64,000 bases of DNA from Nymphaea colorata. Lineage: Eukaryota > Streptophyta > Magnoliopsida > Nymphaeales > Nymphaeaceae. The stretch lies in assembly GCF_008831285.2 (NCBI RefSeq), contig NC_045146.1:16631289-16695288 (forward strand), written 5' to 3'. The notes under the pieces were generated by a model. It had not been told where the DNA came from. It ran no database searches and saw nothing but the letters and a program-made list of their open reading frames with translations. The translations under genes and the position numbers were made by a program. Positions 11,812 to 63,780 of the stretch are shown here, one piece after another (position 1 is the first letter of the stretch; each line of letters begins with the position of its first letter).

Positions 11812-12604
11812 CCCTTAAAACCTAAATCTTCAAACTAACCTTATGGACCAGAAGCTCTTTTATATCATGAAAAATAGTCAATTCGCAGGTCATGAATGTA
11901 TTAAGCAATATATATATATATATATATATAGTGAGTGAGCGATGACTCCAGTTATCTAGAGTCACTCAATCATCTAACTAATGCCGTCCATCTAAAGAGC
12001 AAATAGATGATTAAGAAAAAAATAAGAAGAAAAAATGTGAACTAACATTAGATGACGAAAATGCCTACATCTTTTTCTTTTATATCAGTCCATTATATTG
12101 GATCCAACAGTACATATTAAATAGGTGAGTGATTCTAAAAAGCTAGAATCACCATTCAATTTTTATATATATATATTAAGCAAGACCTAGAGTTCATTCC
12201 ATTGTTTTGAAGTTGAGGGTGTAAACCATGGTATCAGGGTGACAGCAGATTAACGACCATCACACACACACACATTTATTTGTTTATTTTATTTATATTT
12301 ATAGAAAGAGAGAGGCTACTAAAACATCAAAGCCAGAAAATATGAGAATCATTGAAAACCATTGAACGTTGTCAGCTATATCTCTCTTGCCAACTAAATT
12401 GTTTTTACTGCCGAAAAAAATGGCAGCCATTGATTTTCCAGACCAAGAAAAATCCATGACCTGCCTAGTCTAAGGCCTGAAACATGGTTCACCCATTAAG
12501 GCTTTACAAGACAAAGGTGGACATTTATTTATCTCCAAAATTAAGCTTTACAAATGGAGGTATATATATTATGTTGACGTTCATCTTCATCGTCGTCTGT
12601 CACA
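10354..12604. other. Spacer between HOS15 5' end and the 12.6-14.2 kb gene
   Basis: The first 350 bases form the HOS15 leader/promoter side, with GAAGAG-type repeats at about 10467-10500 and a CT microsatellite at about 10641-10670. Further on are (TA)n tracts at 11774-11810 and 11908-11930 and a MITE at 11909-12173. I see no convincing gene. The open frames at 10407-10786 only cross the purine/pyrimidine-rich leader. Confidence 0.6.
11909..12173. mobile_element. (TA)n-ended MITE with 9-10 base target duplication
   Basis: A block of about 265 bases is flanked by TATTAAGCAA at 11899-11908 and again at 12174-12183. Both ends carry TA dinucleotide tracts. Just inside each end is a small hairpin: TGACTC...GAGTCA on the left and GTGATTCTA...TAGAATCAC on the right. 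Each is next to a GTGAGTGA-like motif. A 9-10 base duplication fits a Mutator-type origin. TA-tract termini resemble the 'Micron' class of MITEs. There is no coding capacity. Confidence 0.65.
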
Positions 12605-18478: not shown

Positions 18479-20392
18479 TCACCAATAATCTCCACATGAG
18501 CAAGTCCCATCAATGAAATGGTGAAATCGACTCCTATCTCGGACAACAATCTTACGACCAGTTATCTTGGAAATCATTTTAGTAACAGTATGGCAATCCA
18601 CGCAGACACGAAGATTTTTAACAATTTTAATGGTAGTCCCAGGTTCAGTGCTAATAAGTCCAAAAGCAATAGCCAGCCTCTCACTGTGAATGGCAAGTGA
18701 TTGCTCTTTATGCTTGTCTTCTATGTCATGCAACACGATCTCGGTTTGTGGAACATATCCTTCTAACTTTAGCAATTCATTTAGTTTATCCAACATAATA
18801 TGGATCTCCTTGCATCTTGGGTGGTTCATATCCCCTGCAAGAAACTCATGGGTTTTATTGTTCACTTCAATTGAACTACAGCCTGGTTCTTTATGAACCC
18901 CACTGTCTTTCATTAGAGTCCTCACTCTTGCTGCCTCTTTCCAATTGCCAGCAGCAGCAAACATGTTTGAAAGGAGAACATAAGTCCCAGAATTAGCAAG
19001 GCCATTCTCCATTAAAAATGAAGCTATCTGCTCACCAAGCTTAATATTACCATGAAGTCGACATGCACCAAGCAAACTTCCCCAAAGAACAGGATCAGGT
19101 GCAATTCGCATACTCTTTACAAGTTCGTAAGCTTCATCCAATAGTCCAGCCCTGCCAAGTAAATCCACCATGCAACCATAATGCTCAATCTTCGGCTCAA
19201 TCCCAAACTTATCCCTCATGGACTCAAAAAACTTGCGCCCGTCATTGACAAGACCTGCATGGCTACATGCATTCAGTAACCCAATGAAGGTTATGTCAGT
19301 TGGTTGAAATTCTAATTCAGTCAGCTCTGAGAACAGCTGCAAAGCCTCTTTGCTCTTGCCATGCATGGCATAGCCTGCAATCATGGCATTCCAAGACACT
19401 ATATCCCTCTCCTGCATATTGTCAAAGACATAGCAAGCATCATCCCAATCACCACACTTGCAGTACATATCTATCAAAGCCGTGTTCACACGCACCCTCG
19501 TATGAAGCCCAATATTCCTAACATACGAATGAACCCATCTTCCAGACTCAATAGAACCCAACTGGGCACAGGCTGATATAACCGAAAGCATTGTCACCTC
19601 ATTGGGCTTCATATTAAATTCCCTCAACATCGATTGAAACAGAGCCAACGCCTCGCTGCACTTGCCATGCTGGGTATAACCATCAATCATGGCATTCCAG
19701 CACACCACATCCCTCTCAGGCATTTTGTCAAACAGCATACGCGCTACATCAACATCACCCAATTTCGCATAGCACGTGATCATGGCAGTCCAAGCGACCA
19801 CATTTCTTTCTGTAATTTCGTCAAACAATTGGCGTGCAGACTGAACTCGTCCACACCTTGCATACATATCGATCAACACGGACTTCACAAACACATCGGA
19901 AACGAGCTGCAACTTCAGCGCATGCCCGTGAATGCATTCCCCATCTCTCAATGCGAAATCCACGGAACACGACTTCAAGACCGTAGACAAAGTGACTGCA
20001 TTTGGCTGGACCCCACGTCCCTGCATCTGGTAATACAAAGAGATAGCTTGAGGATGGTGACCATTAACAGAGTAAGACCGGATGAGGCCCGTCCAGAAGA
20101 AGACGTTCGGTTCTGCTATACGGTCGAAAACGAGGTGGGCGAGTCGGGTGCTCCCAGAATTCGAGTAGGAGCGGAGAAGCTTGAACATCAAAAGATCGTC
20201 TTGCACCAATCCTTGCTTGACGACAGCGGCATGGACTTGGAGGACGTGGTCAAGAGTCTTGCACCTCTCGAGGAGGACGGCAGGTGGGTGTGGAAGAGAA
20301 ACGCGAGAGGAAGGACGTTGGTCTTGAATAGTGGTGGCTGTGTGGTGAGGAAGTGGCGACAATGCTGTTGAGGCCATGGCGACTACCTCCAT
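18479..20392 (-). CDS. ELI1: PPR-DYW RNA-editing factor, ELI1 orthologue
   Basis: Intronless PLS-class pentatricopeptide repeat protein of 637 residues, ending in E, E+ and DYW domains. The order and wording match Arabidopsis ELI1, which edits the chloroplast ndhG transcript. Shared stretches include LIDMYCKCGDWDDA, DIVSWNAMIAGYAMHGKS, PTDITFIGLLNACSHAGLVN and KIEHYGCMVDLLGRAG. The DYW deaminase-like domain shows HSERLAIAFGLI (zinc-binding HxE), then CVDCHTVTKMISKITGR (CxxC type), and ends in CSCGDYW. The N terminus, rich in Ser, Thr, Pro and His, suits a plastid transit peptide. ATG 20392 gives MEVVAMAST. ATG 20377 (MASTAL) has a better start context and aligns with the family start, so 632 residues is equally possible. 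The frame is whole. Confidence 0.92.
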   Translation of the reverse strand: MEVVAMASTALSPLPHHTATTIQDQRPSSRVSLPHPPAVLLERCKTLDHVLQVHAAVVKQGLVQDDLLMFKLLRSYSNSGSTRLAHLVFDRIAEPNVFFWTGLIRSYSVNGHHPQAISLYYQMQGRGVQPNAVTLSTVLKSCSVDFALRDGECIHGHALKLQLVSDVFVKSVLIDMYARCGRVQSARQLFDEITERNVVAWTAMITCYAKLGDVDVARMLFDKMPERDVVCWNAMIDGYTQHGKCSEALALFQSMLREFNMKPNEVTMLSVISACAQLGSIESGRWVHSYVRNIGLHTRVRVNTALIDMYCKCGDWDDACYVFDNMQERDIVSWNAMIAGYAMHGKSKEALQLFSELTELEFQPTDITFIGLLNACSHAGLVNDGRKFFESMRDKFGIEPKIEHYGCMVDLLGRAGLLDEAYELVKSMRIAPDPVLWGSLLGACRLHGNIKLGEQIASFLMENGLANSGTYVLLSNMFAAAGNWKEAARVRTLMKDSGVHKEPGCSSIEVNNKTHEFLAGDMNHPRCKEIHIMLDKLNELLKLEGYVPQTEIVLHDIEDKHKEQSLAIHSERLAIAFGLISTEPGTTIKIVKNLRVCVDCHTVTKMISKITGRKIVVRDRSRFHHFIDGTCSCGDYW

Positions 20393-21930
20393 CAACAGCC
20401 CTCACCAGATTAATGTAAAGTGCGCGTAGCCAGGTTTCCATCCCTCTCTCAAACGGATGAGCTCTTTCAAGTTAACCGTTGGTGTCCCGGAAGTTATAAG
20501 ATAATTTTGTATTTCGCAACCCAGAGCTTGGGATAATTCATAAAACCGGCTTCATGTTTTCGAGTTTCTCATGACGCCTTTAAAAACGTCGTTATGACTT
20601 GCGTGGATACCAGGTGTTGCAGTGTCAGGTTTTCTAACGAGTAACTCGAACCTGCTTGTGAGTGAGAATAATAAAAACCTTTGCATAAAAAATTTGGGGG
20701 TGCCCATGTTATTCATTTTTTTTTAACACCGTTTTGTCAAACTGGGTTATGTACAATCGTCACCCATATACTCCTTAAGGACCATTTAAATACTTCATAT
20801 TTAAAAATTCATGAATTTGATGTGTCAAATTTAGTTTATTAAATTGAGGATATTAAGTCCAACCTAAAATCCACACTCGAAATTTTTATTTTTCCTTTTT
20901 GTATTGAGAAAATATCCAATTTAAGGTCAATGGTTCTGTATAGTTCTCAAATTTTAAAGATTTTAAATCAGTGGCAATCAAATGTCCGTTGAGGCTTTGT
21001 TTGGCCCACGGAACATATAACATTCAATCTGTTCGAAAGATTGAGATATATTCACAAAATATTAAAACTATTGTTCTATGAACCTACCTCAATCTTTCAA
21101 GAATTTTATAAGACAACAAAGTGCCTCTTTTGCCATACAACTACATTGAAAGTTGTCTCCAAAACAGTGTTTAAAGGGTGTCATTCATAAACGCTTTATA
21201 CTTTTCTTAACAAAAAAAAACAATATAATGTTCTCAAGTTCAAAAATTTGTGAAGTAACCAAATAGTTATCCACATGATTAGAATGTTAAATTTAAAACC
21301 TTTAAACTGAAAAGGGTTGAAAAATTAATGTTGAAGTAAATTTCTGTTATCATTGTCCGGCAATAACTCGCCCAAGATGTTCATTCTCATAAAAGGATGA
21401 AAAATGACAACGGTAGCTTATATTTGGTCATAGTCCTTTGTTCTTTTCCGATTCTGTGGTGGGATCGTTCCTTTTGATCACTTTGGCTGATAGTGTTCTT
21501 TTGGGTGAGCAGGAGAATTAATCTCAATATCGACACCAAAATTCTCCAAATGCTGGAACTTACTAGCGGTGTTCTTCGAGGATGAATCTTCCAGCTGAAT
21601 TTGCTAGGCTACCTTTTGGGTTTTTTGATGCGGTCCGCCCGTGATGGGTATGATCTGGTCCAGTTCCACAATCTAAGGAAAGTGGAGGGAGCAACCACTC
21701 CATCCAACTCCCCGCTCTCCGAAGCTGAGAAGAGCTCCTCCTCCATTCTTGGAATTGAGTTCTGTCCGTGTATGAGAGAGAGAAGAGGAAGAGAAAACGT
21801 GGTGGCTACGATCTCACTCTCTTCCCCTTTTCCATGGAAGATGAAGGATGAACAGTGCTCTCTTTAGATTCCTCCCATTAAACTACGAGCTCGCTGGATT
21901 TTCTGTTCGCGAGACCGTATATAGGTTAAG
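20393..21930. other. Divergent promoter spacer
   Basis: Lies between the 5' end of the minus-strand ELI1 gene and the candidate plus-strand small gene. It is AT-rich for the first kilobase. A GC-richer part from about 21560, with short open frames, is probably the leader of the plus-strand transcript. No other gene is seen. Confidence 0.5.
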
Positions 21931-57925: not shown

Positions 57926-59742
57926 ATAATCAAACATGTACTTTGTTATAATTTTTTGTTTACAACTTTTAAGTCTATTGAAGTGACTGAGGGTAGTAAA
58001 AAGTCACATCACTCATCTACATGAAGAAAAAAGGAACAAAACTTAGGCTTGTATATGGTAATTATCATAAAATAAAAGTGCCTTAAAATGAAATATATAA
58101 ATAAATGAAATATATAAATATTGTGCCCCATCTAAGTCCTACCCAACCCCATGACCCCGGAAGCAAGAGAAACGGGATCCTTCTCACCGACAAATGAAAT
58201 ATATAAAATATTTGTCCCGAACCCTAAGCCTAGTAAGTCATGACCTTTGTAACACAATTGTGACAGTTTCAGGCTTTCTTCAGACAGTGGGTTGTTATAA
58301 CCTCCTACTCACCGACAAATGAAACATGTAAAATATTTGTCCCGAATATCCTAAGCCTAGTAAGTCATGACCTTTGTAACACACGAGAAGTTTCTTTTTA
58401 AGTCCCAAACCCTAAGCCACGTTGATCAAGATTTTCAAGCGCTGAGCAACCTAACACTTCCTTTAACGTAAGTCCCCTCAACTTTTTGAAAGTTTGCAAG
58501 TCATCAAAAGCATAAATCACAAAGCTACATCACGTAATGACGATTAGTCAAAAACCCAATTTGGAAAAGAGTTTGAAAAATGTTGATGAGGCGTAGACCT
58601 AACTGGTTCAAATCACACGAGTCCTACTCGTAATTATGAGGGGTGGGCTCAACCTAATCGTGCAAACTTCGCAATCTCGAGGTCTTTGTTGGGCATGGGT
58701 CCGGCGTCGACCGACCAGGCATGTGAGACCCATGGCTCGGTGTGGGTCAGTCCCCAGTCTTCACTTGACCACAAAAGCAACACGCCATGTCGTTTTTCAA
58801 CATGGCTTTCCATTGTGAAATTATTTGTGGTATTATTGGTGCTTCTTGTTGTTTTTTGTACTAATAATAAGCTGTTCTTCCTTCTTCTTTCTTTCTCCGA
58901 AAAGGAAAAGAAGTTGATCTCTCCCACAAAAGAGATGATCCAATACGTCACCTGACATGTCTATATATCTTAGGTTCTGGTAAGGCCTACAAGTAGAAGT
59001 ATTGATAATTGAGCACCTAAACATTTGTCCATTGTAAAGGCACCAAAAAATCTGAATCACATGGCAGTAAGTACAAGCCCTTCACTCTTGTCTTAATTCT
59101 ACCAAAATGCAACTCCCAAGAAGAAGAAGATATAAGAAAGAGAGACAGAGATAACTTGAGAGTGACAGAATTCATGGTTAAATATACTTGAAACTAGAGA
59201 GACAATGATCCAGAGAAACTTGTTTCGTTTTGAAACTAAACAAGGTGAAATTGGCATAGTTTACTTAACAGTGCACAATTCTTCTAAAAGATCCAAAACA
59301 ATAATTTGTGCAGAGAAAGGTGTAAATATATAGAAAAAGCAGTAATTTGGTATTCATAAAATATTGAAAATAAAGAAAGATATGTGGTTAAATAGAATGA
59401 ATATATTCTTTTATACAAAAGTGCAGGAACATGATTTGCAGTCAGCATTTGTCTCCGCACCACTGGACCACATGTCAAACGGATTCAAACATGCGCTACC
59501 TTGTCAAAGAGCGGACAAGTTGTCCCCGCCAAATGAGCGACGTTCCCACATTTTAAAGCTCCGCACGGACAACGTTAACGTGGAATAAGAAGCAACCAGG
59601 AGAGTTAAGAAAAAAAAAAATCCTATTTATCTTTCGTTCTTCCGACTCTCATCCTTTCCCAGGCCCTAAAAGGAAAAAAAAAAAAGACTTTTCTAAAGGA
59701 CTGTACTACCCAAAACTATATATATATAATTGGTAAAATAAT
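57926..59742. other. Spacer with a 75-base repeat pair
   Basis: Apart from the direct repeats at 58183-58384 nothing gene-like is seen. CCTAACTGGTTCAAATCACA at about 58599 resembles a weak Pol III B box. Confidence 0.45.
58183..58384 (+). repeat. Direct repeat pair of about 75 bases
   Basis: 58183-58256 and 58308-58384 share CTCACCGACAAATGAAA, AAAATATTTGTCCCGAA and CTAAGCCTAGTAAGTCATGA with few differences, separated by about 50 bases. Confidence 0.85.
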
Positions 59743-60086
59743 ATTTTAAATAAAACAAAAACATCTTAAATAGGAATCCCTACATGATCAAAATGTTGAT
59801 ATTATATGAGCGAGCCGTTCAATTTTACCTATTGTCAAAATACAATTAACTTAATATATGTTTCTATAAGTTGAGATCTTACCTGGAAGGTTAGATTAAT
59901 AAGGTATTTTTTATAATCTAACCTTCCAGGTAAGATCTCAACTTATAGAAACATATATTAAGTTAATTATTTTTTAAAGTTAATTGTATTTTGATAATAG
60001 GTAAAATTGAACGGCTCGCTCATATAATATCAACATTTTGATCATGTAGGGGTTCCTATGTAAGATGTTTTTGTTTTATTTAAAAT
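59743..60086. repeat. Foldback (hairpin) element, arms about 160-170 bases
   Basis: 59743-59898 is the inverse of 59914-60086, with a 15-base loop. The right arm carries an extra insert of about 17 bases. Landmarks such as GAGCGAGCCGTTCAATTTTA and its inverse TAAAATTGAACGGCTCGCTC match exactly. It is AT-rich with no coding capacity. If transcribed it would form a long, nearly perfect hairpin. It is probably a foldback MITE. Confidence 0.9.
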
Positions 60087-60270
60087 TAATTTTTTAGCAA
60101 CAATTTAAAACGAACTCCTTTTGAATCGCCGAAATTGTAGGACAGGTGGAGACGTTAGGTGTGCTCTTTGGTGTCGAGAGTATTACAAAACAATTCTTTT
60201 GTAAAACTTTCAATGAAATGTTCAAAATCTCAGCTTCCTTGCTAACTAGAGAAAACACACACACACACAG

Positions 60271-60799
60271 TGCCAGAGTCAAGTTTCTTACTTGGTGAAC
60301 TGTCGAAAGGATTTGTGTATTGTTTTCCGCTTCCAAAAGTTAAAAATAAAAACAGTCTGCATTGCCTTGACGTCTTGTAGTTGAAGACCTGCTGTCACAA
60401 GCAACTGCAAACCCTTTCATCTATCCTTCCTTCCTTGTCAAGTTCGCCTTCCCATTTGATCAGTTGCATTTCAAACGGACAGCACCTACTTTGTTCAAAA
60501 ACTTAACTTCCTTGCTCTCGACACCAAAGAGCACACCTACTATTGGCTGTTTGAAATGACCTGTGAAATGCGTTTTGCGTGGAGCTGCTGTCCGTTTGAA
60601 AAGCAACTGATCAAATGGGAAGGCGAACTTGACAAGGAAGGAGGGATAGATGAAAGGGTTTGCAGTTGCTTGTGACAGCAGGTCTTCAACTACAAGACGT
60701 CAAGGCAATGCAGACTGTTTTTATTTTTAACTTTTGGAAGCGGAAAACAATACACAAATCCTTTCGACAGTTCACCAAGTAAGAAACTTGACTCTGGCA
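60271..60799. repeat. Recent inverted duplication, 214-base arms with 101-base spacer
   Basis: 60271-60484 is the inverse of 60586-60799 with only two substitutions and no gap by eye. A further perfect 25-base inverted pair links 60156-60180 to 60515-60539 inside the spacer. Each arm opens the same 22-codon stretch (MEAENNTQILSTVHQVRNLT), so two open frames here are mirror copies and not evidence of coding. The right arm lies 238 bases beyond the GH3 stop and may fall in its 3' untranslated region. Confidence 0.92.
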
Positions 60800-61036
60800 G
60801 ATACTTTGCGTAAAACACAAATTAAGAGCATGAATCTCAACTCATCTCAATCAGAAGAGACAAATGAAGCTGGAGAAGGTAACGGGACATATTATGTTAA
60901 TCATTTAACTGAGACAGAAAGATGATGCAACACTATATGCTCGCTCAACAACATTTTTGACAGAATTTACTTTCAAGAGAAAACAAAAAGAAACACTAAC
61001 AAAACAAATATTTATGAAAGACGAGTAAACAGTAAA

Positions 61037-63780
61037 TCAATATTGGCGGCGATTTGGAGTCCAATGTGGGCAGGCGAGGCTGAAGTGTGAGCTCACAACC
61101 CTGGAGTGAAGAAGCTCCAAGATGGGCGTGAAGCTAACGCACCTAGGGACCTTGTATTGGTTAATGGAGGCGCCTCTGGAGATGGCATATTCCATCAGCT
61201 CCTCAAACGTCCCACTCTTCACCACCCTTATCTCCAGCGGCCCGATCGACTGGTCACACACCCTCCCCTGCCTGTACACCGAGTTGAACTCCTCCTCCAT
61301 GTCCAGGCAGCACTGTTCCATCACCCCTTCCGGCACCGGCCCGCTCTCCGACGCCAGTTCGAAGAACACGACGTAGTGTCCCGGTATCGTCTTGGTATCG
61401 GCGTAGCTCGTGTACTCCACGATACGGGTGCCGTAGTCCTTGATCAGCCGGTTCGATGCGGCCTCGACCGCCTTCTGCAGCTCCGCCTCGTCGGTCTTGT
61501 CGGAGTCGATGCTGAGGACGACGTTCTTCCTGCGGATGAACTTGAACTGGGGGGCCGCGTTGTGGAAGCCGCTCACCCGGAGGATGTCGCCGACTCGATA
61601 GCGGTACAGCCCGGCGTACGTCGTGATGACAAGCTCGTACTCCTTGCCGAGCTCCACGTCGGCGAGGTCGACGAGATCGGCGTGGCTCAGCTCCGGCCGG
61701 TTGGGGTCGTGGGGCAGGAACTCGAAGTAGCCCATGTTGGGCATGATGGTGTAGGTGACCTCCGACGGCTTGCACATGGGGTTCAGGTTCAGGCCGAAGT
61801 AGCACTCGGAGGAGGCATACATGGTGCACACGAGGGGCAGCCCGCCGCCGTAGTGATTGAGCGTGGGGATGTACTGAGCCATGGCGCCGGTGACGATGAC
61901 GTCCAGGTACTTGGTGTTGGGCCAGATCTTGGTGATGATCCCTTCCCAATTGGGGTCCGAGCACTTCTCCCGGACGAAGCGAGCCAGCGTCGGGTTCGGC
62001 CGGAGCAACTTGGCCACGGCGGCGCGGATGGATGGCTCGGTGACGCGGGAGCTCATGGTGCCGCGCTCGATGTCGTCGGCCAGTTCCTGCCAGTGGACCT
62101 GGAGGAAGCGGATGGCGCGGAGGAGGCCGGAGGCGAAGACGGCGCCGACGCGGAGGACCTGCTCCTGCTGGACGAGGCCGCAGAGCATCTGCGAGTACAT
62201 GCTCTGGAAGGAGTCAGAGCAGAGGATGGCCTCGGTGGGGCTGGTGTAGACGAGGTAGGGGTTGAACTTGCGGTGCTTGAAGATCTCGCTCTTGTAGTAG
62301 CTGGTCAGCACCGGGCGCGCCGGCAGCCCTCCCGGCGTCTTGGTGTCCGTCTTCACGAACAGGAAGTACAGACCTTTGCCCTTGTCCAGGCCTGGCACGA
62401 ACCTGCACCATTCATATTATTCCCCAACCCGTTAGATAAAGTTAAAGCCTGAAATATACAATTACATTCTCTCAGATACTTTGTTCATCTCATATGCATC
62501 TGCCATCTGCGCGTGTGATGTTTGTTCTCACTAAATTTATTAGAGCTATGAACAGATTTATGGGCAAGATGCAGGAAACCAAAAAGTTCTCTCTCTGAAA
62601 GCTGTCATTATCTATATAAACTATATGATAGTTGAAACACAATCTCGTGAGACGTTGAAACTGTTCCCATTTTTAGAGAAAAATTTGGAAAAGGTATCAG
62701 CATAAACCAATGAGCTGTAAAATTGTCAGTAGAATTAATTTGAATGAAATATATAGACAGACAGAGAAACTTTTATATTGTTGATATCAAGAGAATACGT
62801 GAATTCTTTTCATAATTAGAATATTCTGTATTTTTCAGGATTCAATCACCGGATGGGGATATGGGTGGGATGCTGCAACACATGGAGGGATGCAAAAGAA
62901 GATCCACGGCAACTTGTGTTGTCCCCCCCTTCTTTCTTTGTCTCAGAGATCAGACACAGGTGGGGGGTTGCATGCGGACCGACTTATATTTATTGATGAT
63001 TGTTTTCATTCATCGCCTACTGAGCACCACATACAGATTCCTCCAAAAGGTGGCAGCATCAGAGAGAAACAAACAAGAGAAGCACATGCCGAGATGACAG
63101 AGACACAAATACTCACTTGTTCATCACGGGTATGAGGAGGTCGTAGAGGAACTGACGGCGATCCAGCTCCTGCTGGATCGTCGGCATGAGCTTCCTTTCG
63201 CCGGCGGACGTTCCGGAGCTGCAAATCGGAAAAAGAAACAAAGAACACCGCAAAAGAGTCAGCACAAAGACGTAGACGGTAAGAACGCATCTTCTTTTAC
63301 GTGAACGAGCAGGAAGTTTGGCAAGCCTTCAGGAGAAATTAAAAACAAAAAAAATCCATCAGTGTTCACCTTGAATGAATATATTACGTAAGGACTCTAC
63401 GTCCCGTCAACTTGGGGAACAACGAGAATAACTCCGTGGACTTGACCCACAAAACGGATAGAAAAACAAAAAAAGAAAAAGGAGAAGAAAGAAGACCTGG
63501 TAAGGAACTCCGATACGGGGTGGGAGGAGAGGATGGGGGAGCGATCGCCATTAGCGATGCGCAGAATCTCAGGCTTGATGTCATCGTAGGTGACCATGGG
63601 GACCTTCTTCTTGAAGGACTCGCGGTAGGTGCAGCCGGCAAGGCCGTAGCGCTGCAGGTATTCAGTGTGCGCATTCTGGCTGAGGATCTCAGCCAGAACC
63701 CGCCGCTGCATCTGGTCAGCATTCTTGGTAGCGTCCTCTATGAATTGCAGCAGCTCGGAGTCCCTTCCGCTGGCACCCAT
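61037..63780 (-). CDS. GH3: GH3 acyl-acid amido synthetase (IAA-amido type), 3 exons
   Basis: Cytosolic adenylating enzyme that joins amino acids to auxin (IAA), lowering free hormone. Exons in gene order: 63780-63497, 63218-63117, 62402-61037. The sum is 1752 bases, or 583 residues, with GT-AG introns. The ATP/AMP-binding motifs are [10 protein letters not shown] at 95-104, YASSE at 324-328 and YRVGD at 397-401. The text [20 protein letters not shown], then [20 protein letters not shown], fits the group II IAA-conjugating enzymes (GH3.1/GH3.8 type). The first donor (AG before GTCTTC) is weak but the junction restores TSSGTS. The third exon is strikingly GC-rich, so a long open frame also appears on its opposite strand. 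Auxin-response cores stand just before the ATG. The enzyme looks complete. Confidence 0.95.

Follow-up and report, generated by a model that had tools for sequence, protein, structure and literature searches.

The window analysed here is a 64,000-nucleotide stretch of the genome of Nymphaea colorata, and our subject is the DNA just past the 3' end of a GH3 gene that it contains. GH3 proteins are a family of hormone-conjugating enzymes. The gene lies on the minus strand, its stop codon is the TGA at 61037-61039, and beyond that stop stand two near-perfect inverted repeats. The features of the locus are as follows:

61037-62398, minus strand: the GH3 gene's final large open frame (Pfam GH3, E=6.1e-68; GH3_M, 1.5e-30; GH3_C, 1.1e-36)
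60583-60799, minus strand: arm B', the right arm of the inverted duplication, 217 nt, pairing with arm B; its outer end is 237 nt from the GH3 stop codon
60488-60582, no strand: loop between the arms, a 95-nt patchwork of C2, A' and then 60540-60582, which has no clear source
60515-60539, minus strand: A', an inverted 25-mer within the loop, matching A at 25/25
60492-60516, plus strand: C2, a direct match to C within the loop (22/25), sharing 2 nt (CT) with A'
60271-60487, plus strand: arm B, the left arm, complementary to 60583-60799 at 214/217 positions
60256-60269, plus strand: short CA run read from the sequence, a single base away from arm B's outer end
60219-60243, plus strand: C, 25 nt long and lying between A and arm B, a 22/25 direct match to 60492-60516
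60176-60211, no strand: imperfect 36-nt palindrome between A and C, self-complementary at 30/36 positions
60156-60180, plus strand: A, a 25-mer outside the left arm, a 25/25 inverted match to 60515-60539
59730-60100, no strand: second near-perfect inverted repeat, MITE-like, with arms 59730-59902 and 60100-59911

Far from this cluster, an open frame at 18479-20395 (minus strand, 638 aa) carries Pfam PPR, E-motif and DYW-deaminase matches. Together with GH3, this PPR-DYW gene points to a plant as the source of the DNA.

An earlier note on this DNA had described two 214-nt arms with two differences around a 101-nt spacer, interleaved with a 25-mer pair. Alignment confirmed both descriptions. The core arms, 60271-60484 and 60586-60799, are identical at 212/214 sites, the two differences falling at 60427/60643 (T/C) and 60468/60602 (A/T). 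When the alignment is extended, the arms grow to 217 nt with three mismatches (60427, 60468 and 60485 on the arm B side), and the loop shrinks to 95 nt. Both core-arm mismatches lie within the loop-side 58 nt; we do not claim conversion between the arms from their position. A chance origin of the arms is excluded: when 60101-60850 was dinucleotide-shuffled 300 times, the inverted self-score averaged 26.9 and was 45 at best, and the real arms score 419. The perfect 25-mer pair (60156-60180 and 60515-60539) by itself scores 50 against that same best value of 45.

The note had also called such near-identity unusual in otherwise decayed spacer DNA. The near-identity stands. The remainder of the statement is not quite right, since a second inverted repeat of 97-99% lies alongside: of the seven inverted pairs of at least 40 nt listed across the whole window, three reach 97-99%, one of them being arms B/B' and two belonging to the neighbouring repeat at 59730-60100, and the other four are at 70-74%. 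A weaker inverted repeat is also seen at 11918-12176, with 60-nt arms of 72% identity in TA-rich DNA; it is possibly an old MITE.

Neither arm has an open frame, as at least one stop interrupts each of the six frames in both, and a search of the 64-kb window found no sequence common to the arms and the GH3 exons or other genes. No further copy of the arms, the A 25-mer or the loop was found elsewhere in those 64 kb, where the best ungapped match to A other than A' has 9/25 mismatches. Exact arm patterns had 0 matches in a prokaryote genome collection, exact 25-mer and arm patterns had 0 matches in viral contigs, and blastn of 60100-60850 against plasmids gave no match; these are non-plant collections, so the absence of matches in them tells little about copies in plant DNA.

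The loop holds more information about the origin of the structure. Together, C2 and A' account for 48 of its 95 bases and resemble an 88-nt stretch of the left flank, 60156-60243, in both orientations. For each of the two pieces, none of 2000 loop shuffles reached the score of its match to the left flank, and a second control gave 0/1000. This resemblance to the adjacent flank marks half of the loop as local rather than foreign DNA. The 2-nt overlap of C2 and A' is too short to tell microhomology from chance. C and C2 differ at 3/25 sites, which has P=0.0016 at the per-site arm divergence of 2/214; their divergence thus exceeds the age of the arms, and the pair is either older or was inaccurately copied. 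The remaining 43 nt, 60540-60582, match DNA elsewhere in the window only as words of 11-13 nt. A weak inverted match at 60549-60570 might be taken for a third copy of the inner arm, but 30/2000 shuffles reach its score, and we do not claim it.

The high identity of the arms (212/214) is consistent with a recent inverted duplication, as the note had proposed; gene conversion or constraint, which it named as well, may also be at work. At assumed substitution rates of 1.3e-8, 4.5e-9 and 2.6e-9 per site per year, the two differences in 214 nt correspond to 0.36, 1.0 or 1.8 million years, with Poisson limits over all three rates of 0.04 to 6.5 million years; if the arms have undergone conversion, these figures are only lower bounds. 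Divergence does not place arms B/B' and the neighbouring repeat in order of age, because the difference between them (2/214 vs. 4/171) is not significant (Fisher p=0.41).

That neighbour spans 371 bp at 24% G+C and lies 170 bp from arm B. Its arms of 173 and 190 nt surround an 8-nt spacer and align with 167 identities, 4 mismatches and 21 gap columns. A single 17-nt gap accounts for most of these columns, and it falls on a short direct repeat of the right arm. The predicted fold has an energy of -230.1 kcal/mol (z -36.6, 0/100 shuffles). All 16 of the below-gathering Rfam matches listed fall within it, three families doing so on both strands. Most are miRNA families of unrelated hosts, and we read these weak matches as probable generic hits to a hairpin. 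No match to a MIRNA family reaches gathering level anywhere in the window. In its dimensions, the repeat recalls MuTAnT, a foldback Mutator-like element that the available part of PMC4486113 describes as 292 bp long, with almost identical 144-bp TIRs and a 9-nt target duplication. Both are foldbacks of about 300 bp (292 vs. 371) with near-identical long TIRs (144 vs. 173/190 bp), and both adjoin a TA run and lie near a gene. Unlike MuTAnT as presented there, the neighbour has a TA run on one side only, its TIR ends differ, and it lacks a 9-nt target duplication: its ends read TATATATAA and CAATTTAAA, and exact words shared within 12 nt reach 4-5 nt at best.

How might arms B and B' have arisen? 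We lean, with some reserve, towards a young, local, multi-step inverted duplication, not transposon-borne, that was produced by serial template switching during replication or repair. MMBIR and FoSTeS are longer-range mechanisms of this type, and it is a process like theirs that we have in mind. Two features that such switching should leave are present: a near-identical inverted copy of nearby DNA, and a junction composed of short pieces of adjacent DNA. Along the DNA, the order is A, C, B, then C2, inverted A and 43 nt of sourceless sequence, and then inverted B; every identified source lies inside 60156-60487. This order, with its strictly local sources, is a pattern that serial template switching could leave. 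We infer that the loop pieces are template-switch copies, and our account of the sequence of copying steps, their direction and any contribution of palindromes has the same standing. The copying strand would have jumped within a few hundred bases and put together, in the present loop, a piece resembling C and an inverted stretch of A; 217 nt of arm would then have been copied in reverse, and rejoining would have followed. Long palindromes can stall replication. The palindromes at 60176-60211 and 59730-60100 may therefore have assisted, the former as a possible stall site and the latter by helping to provoke the duplication of the arms, which is speculation; that the neighbour belongs to one and the same event is only conjectural. 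Against template switching are the 3/25 differences of C2 and the 43 loop nucleotides that have no clear source. According to the excerpted text of PMC8794818, replication-linked template switching can yield reverse-complement copies and hairpin stems in a single event.

The principal competing origin is transposition, which we regard as disfavoured and unlikely. The structure could be a transposon of foldback or MITE type whose long inverted repeats are subterminal; alternatively, A and A' could bound an older TIR element (60156-60539, 384 bp) whose interior was later reverse-duplicated. The second version draws on the perfect 25-bp inverted pair, which by eye loosely resembles some of the PIF/Harbinger TIRs in the accessible portion of PMC2213677. 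That portion gives TIRs of 14-25 bp, a TTA/TAA target-site duplication and a G(N)5GTT TIR motif for these Tourist-like elements. The length of A/A' (25 bp, 25/25) falls within this range, but its ends (GGTGTG...) are flanked by TTA on the left and TAC on the right, and the A 25-mer lacks the G(N)5GTT motif and indeed any GTT; on these grounds, a PIF/Harbinger assignment of A/A' is disfavoured. At the ends of arms B and B', an exact-word scan over +/-12 nt found no target-site duplication. What it did return was one 4-nt word and a direct word of 8 nt, AAAACACA (and, within it, a 7-nt word), at 60252-60259 and 60812-60819. This word leaves some room for a transposon-like insertion. Its length, however, is reached in 87/2000 shuffles of the two 31-nt flanks, a borderline result that disfavours the transposon reading; it is also CA-rich, has no matching termini at its borders, and is separated from the arms by 11-12 nt that do not match each other. 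The earlier contention that this is not a simple MITE is thus supported. The pieces of the loop match DNA lying outside the arms, and the 64 kb hold no second copy of the structure that we could find. Since those pieces resemble the flank in both orientations, a copying accident is favoured over transposition.

Near-identical, closely spaced inverted copies are also a known class of artefact, so that a chimeric inverted read, introduced in the library or the assembly, would account for the arms without any event in the plant. We give this explanation little credence: the arms differ at 2/214 (or 3/217) sites, and the loop is a patchwork that includes an older-looking piece.

With serial template switching as our preferred origin, the consequences of the duplication can be considered separately. 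Folded as RNA from the GH3 strand, the whole region has a predicted energy of -450.7 kcal/mol (z -42.7, 0/20 shuffles). A long dsRNA is therefore possible if the region is transcribed from end to end, and the earlier suggestion to that effect is physically sound. The proposed source of the transcript, read-through from GH3, fared less well. Between 60101 and 61060, the GH3 strand has a single canonical AATAAA, which falls inside the near arm, B' (60725-60720, minus strand); arm B carries the word on the plus strand. Plant poly(A) signals are loose, and a variant CATAAA is found 21 nt past the GH3 stop. Given the AATAAA in the near arm, an ordinary GH3 mRNA would probably end ahead of the second arm, carry at most one arm and form no hairpin, which weakens read-through as the source.

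The note had gone on to suggest a young miRNA locus. Beyond the hairpin, nothing supports this: the arms match no gene of the window, have stops in six frames and, searched against Rfam, return no family at E values up to 1. Of the attributes of a plant MIRNA, hairpin-capable arms are predicted by the fold, and a search for arm homology to a target, covering the genes of the window, gave no match. We thus view the structure as a long-hairpin-capable element whose transcript, if made from end to end, would by this model give dsRNA of the siRNA type rather than an miRNA. Production of small RNAs from the arms is plausible by analogy, and the element probably has no function yet.

We think it distinctly unlikely that the hairpin is a young locus for siRNAs, or a proto-miRNA, that acts on GH3 or on another gene. 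In favour of this reading are the long, near-perfect predicted hairpin, 237 nt beyond the GH3 stop, and a precedent: according to PMC12595863, gene-proximal inverted repeats in Arabidopsis often produce 24-nt siRNAs and have effects on chromatin; 634/885 inverted repeats lie no more than 3 kb from a gene, and about 486 of those 634 make 24-nt siRNAs (Arce et al. 2023, via PMC12595863). Opposed to it are the lack of sequence that the arms share with the exons of GH3 or with other genes of the window, the lack of a match to an RNA family and the position of the AATAAA. Its most specific form would unite origin and function. One replication accident would have created a near-perfect 217-bp hairpin containing the GH3 poly(A) signal region, its siRNAs would match the GH3 3' UTR and silence or methylate GH3 in cis, and the whole would be a newborn regulator: a gene-linked inverted repeat that is not a transposon. 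We consider this very improbable.

Hairpin siRNA loci and, in the inverted-duplication model, some miRNA loci can grow out of very young inverted duplications. Subsequent changes usually obscure how such duplications arose; at this join, flank-like pieces remain visible in both orientations. Should siRNAs be made from the arms, they could match the likely GH3 3' UTR and offer a route to new regulation; should none be made, the structure is an ordinary neutral structural mutation. One open-library search, covering titles and the openings of abstracts, had no title on an inverted repeat beside GH3 among those listed, a result that describes that search and makes no claim about print at large.

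The locus can be compared with three known systems. Like the gene-proximal inverted repeats of Arabidopsis, it is a long repeat that lies less than 3 kb from a gene and could form a dsRNA hairpin; about 68% of those repeats are likely transposon-derived by the figure in the available text (PMC12595863), whereas no transposon hallmark is clearly present here. It shares with the inverted-duplication model of MIRNA birth, as outlined in the part of PMC3237417 available, a segment that is present as two neighbouring copies in opposite orientation; in that model the copies derive from the target gene, and the search of the present window found no gene as their source. The hairpins attributed to template switching differ in scale: the largest pattern mentioned in the excerpt of PMC8794818 is 59 bp, and the arms here are of 217 nt, with a loop that resembles several stitched pieces, so that a longer-range form of the mechanism has to be assumed. 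In kind, the two are alike, as the hairpins described there also have near-perfect stems formed from a local reverse-complement copy, which changes in the loop can accompany.
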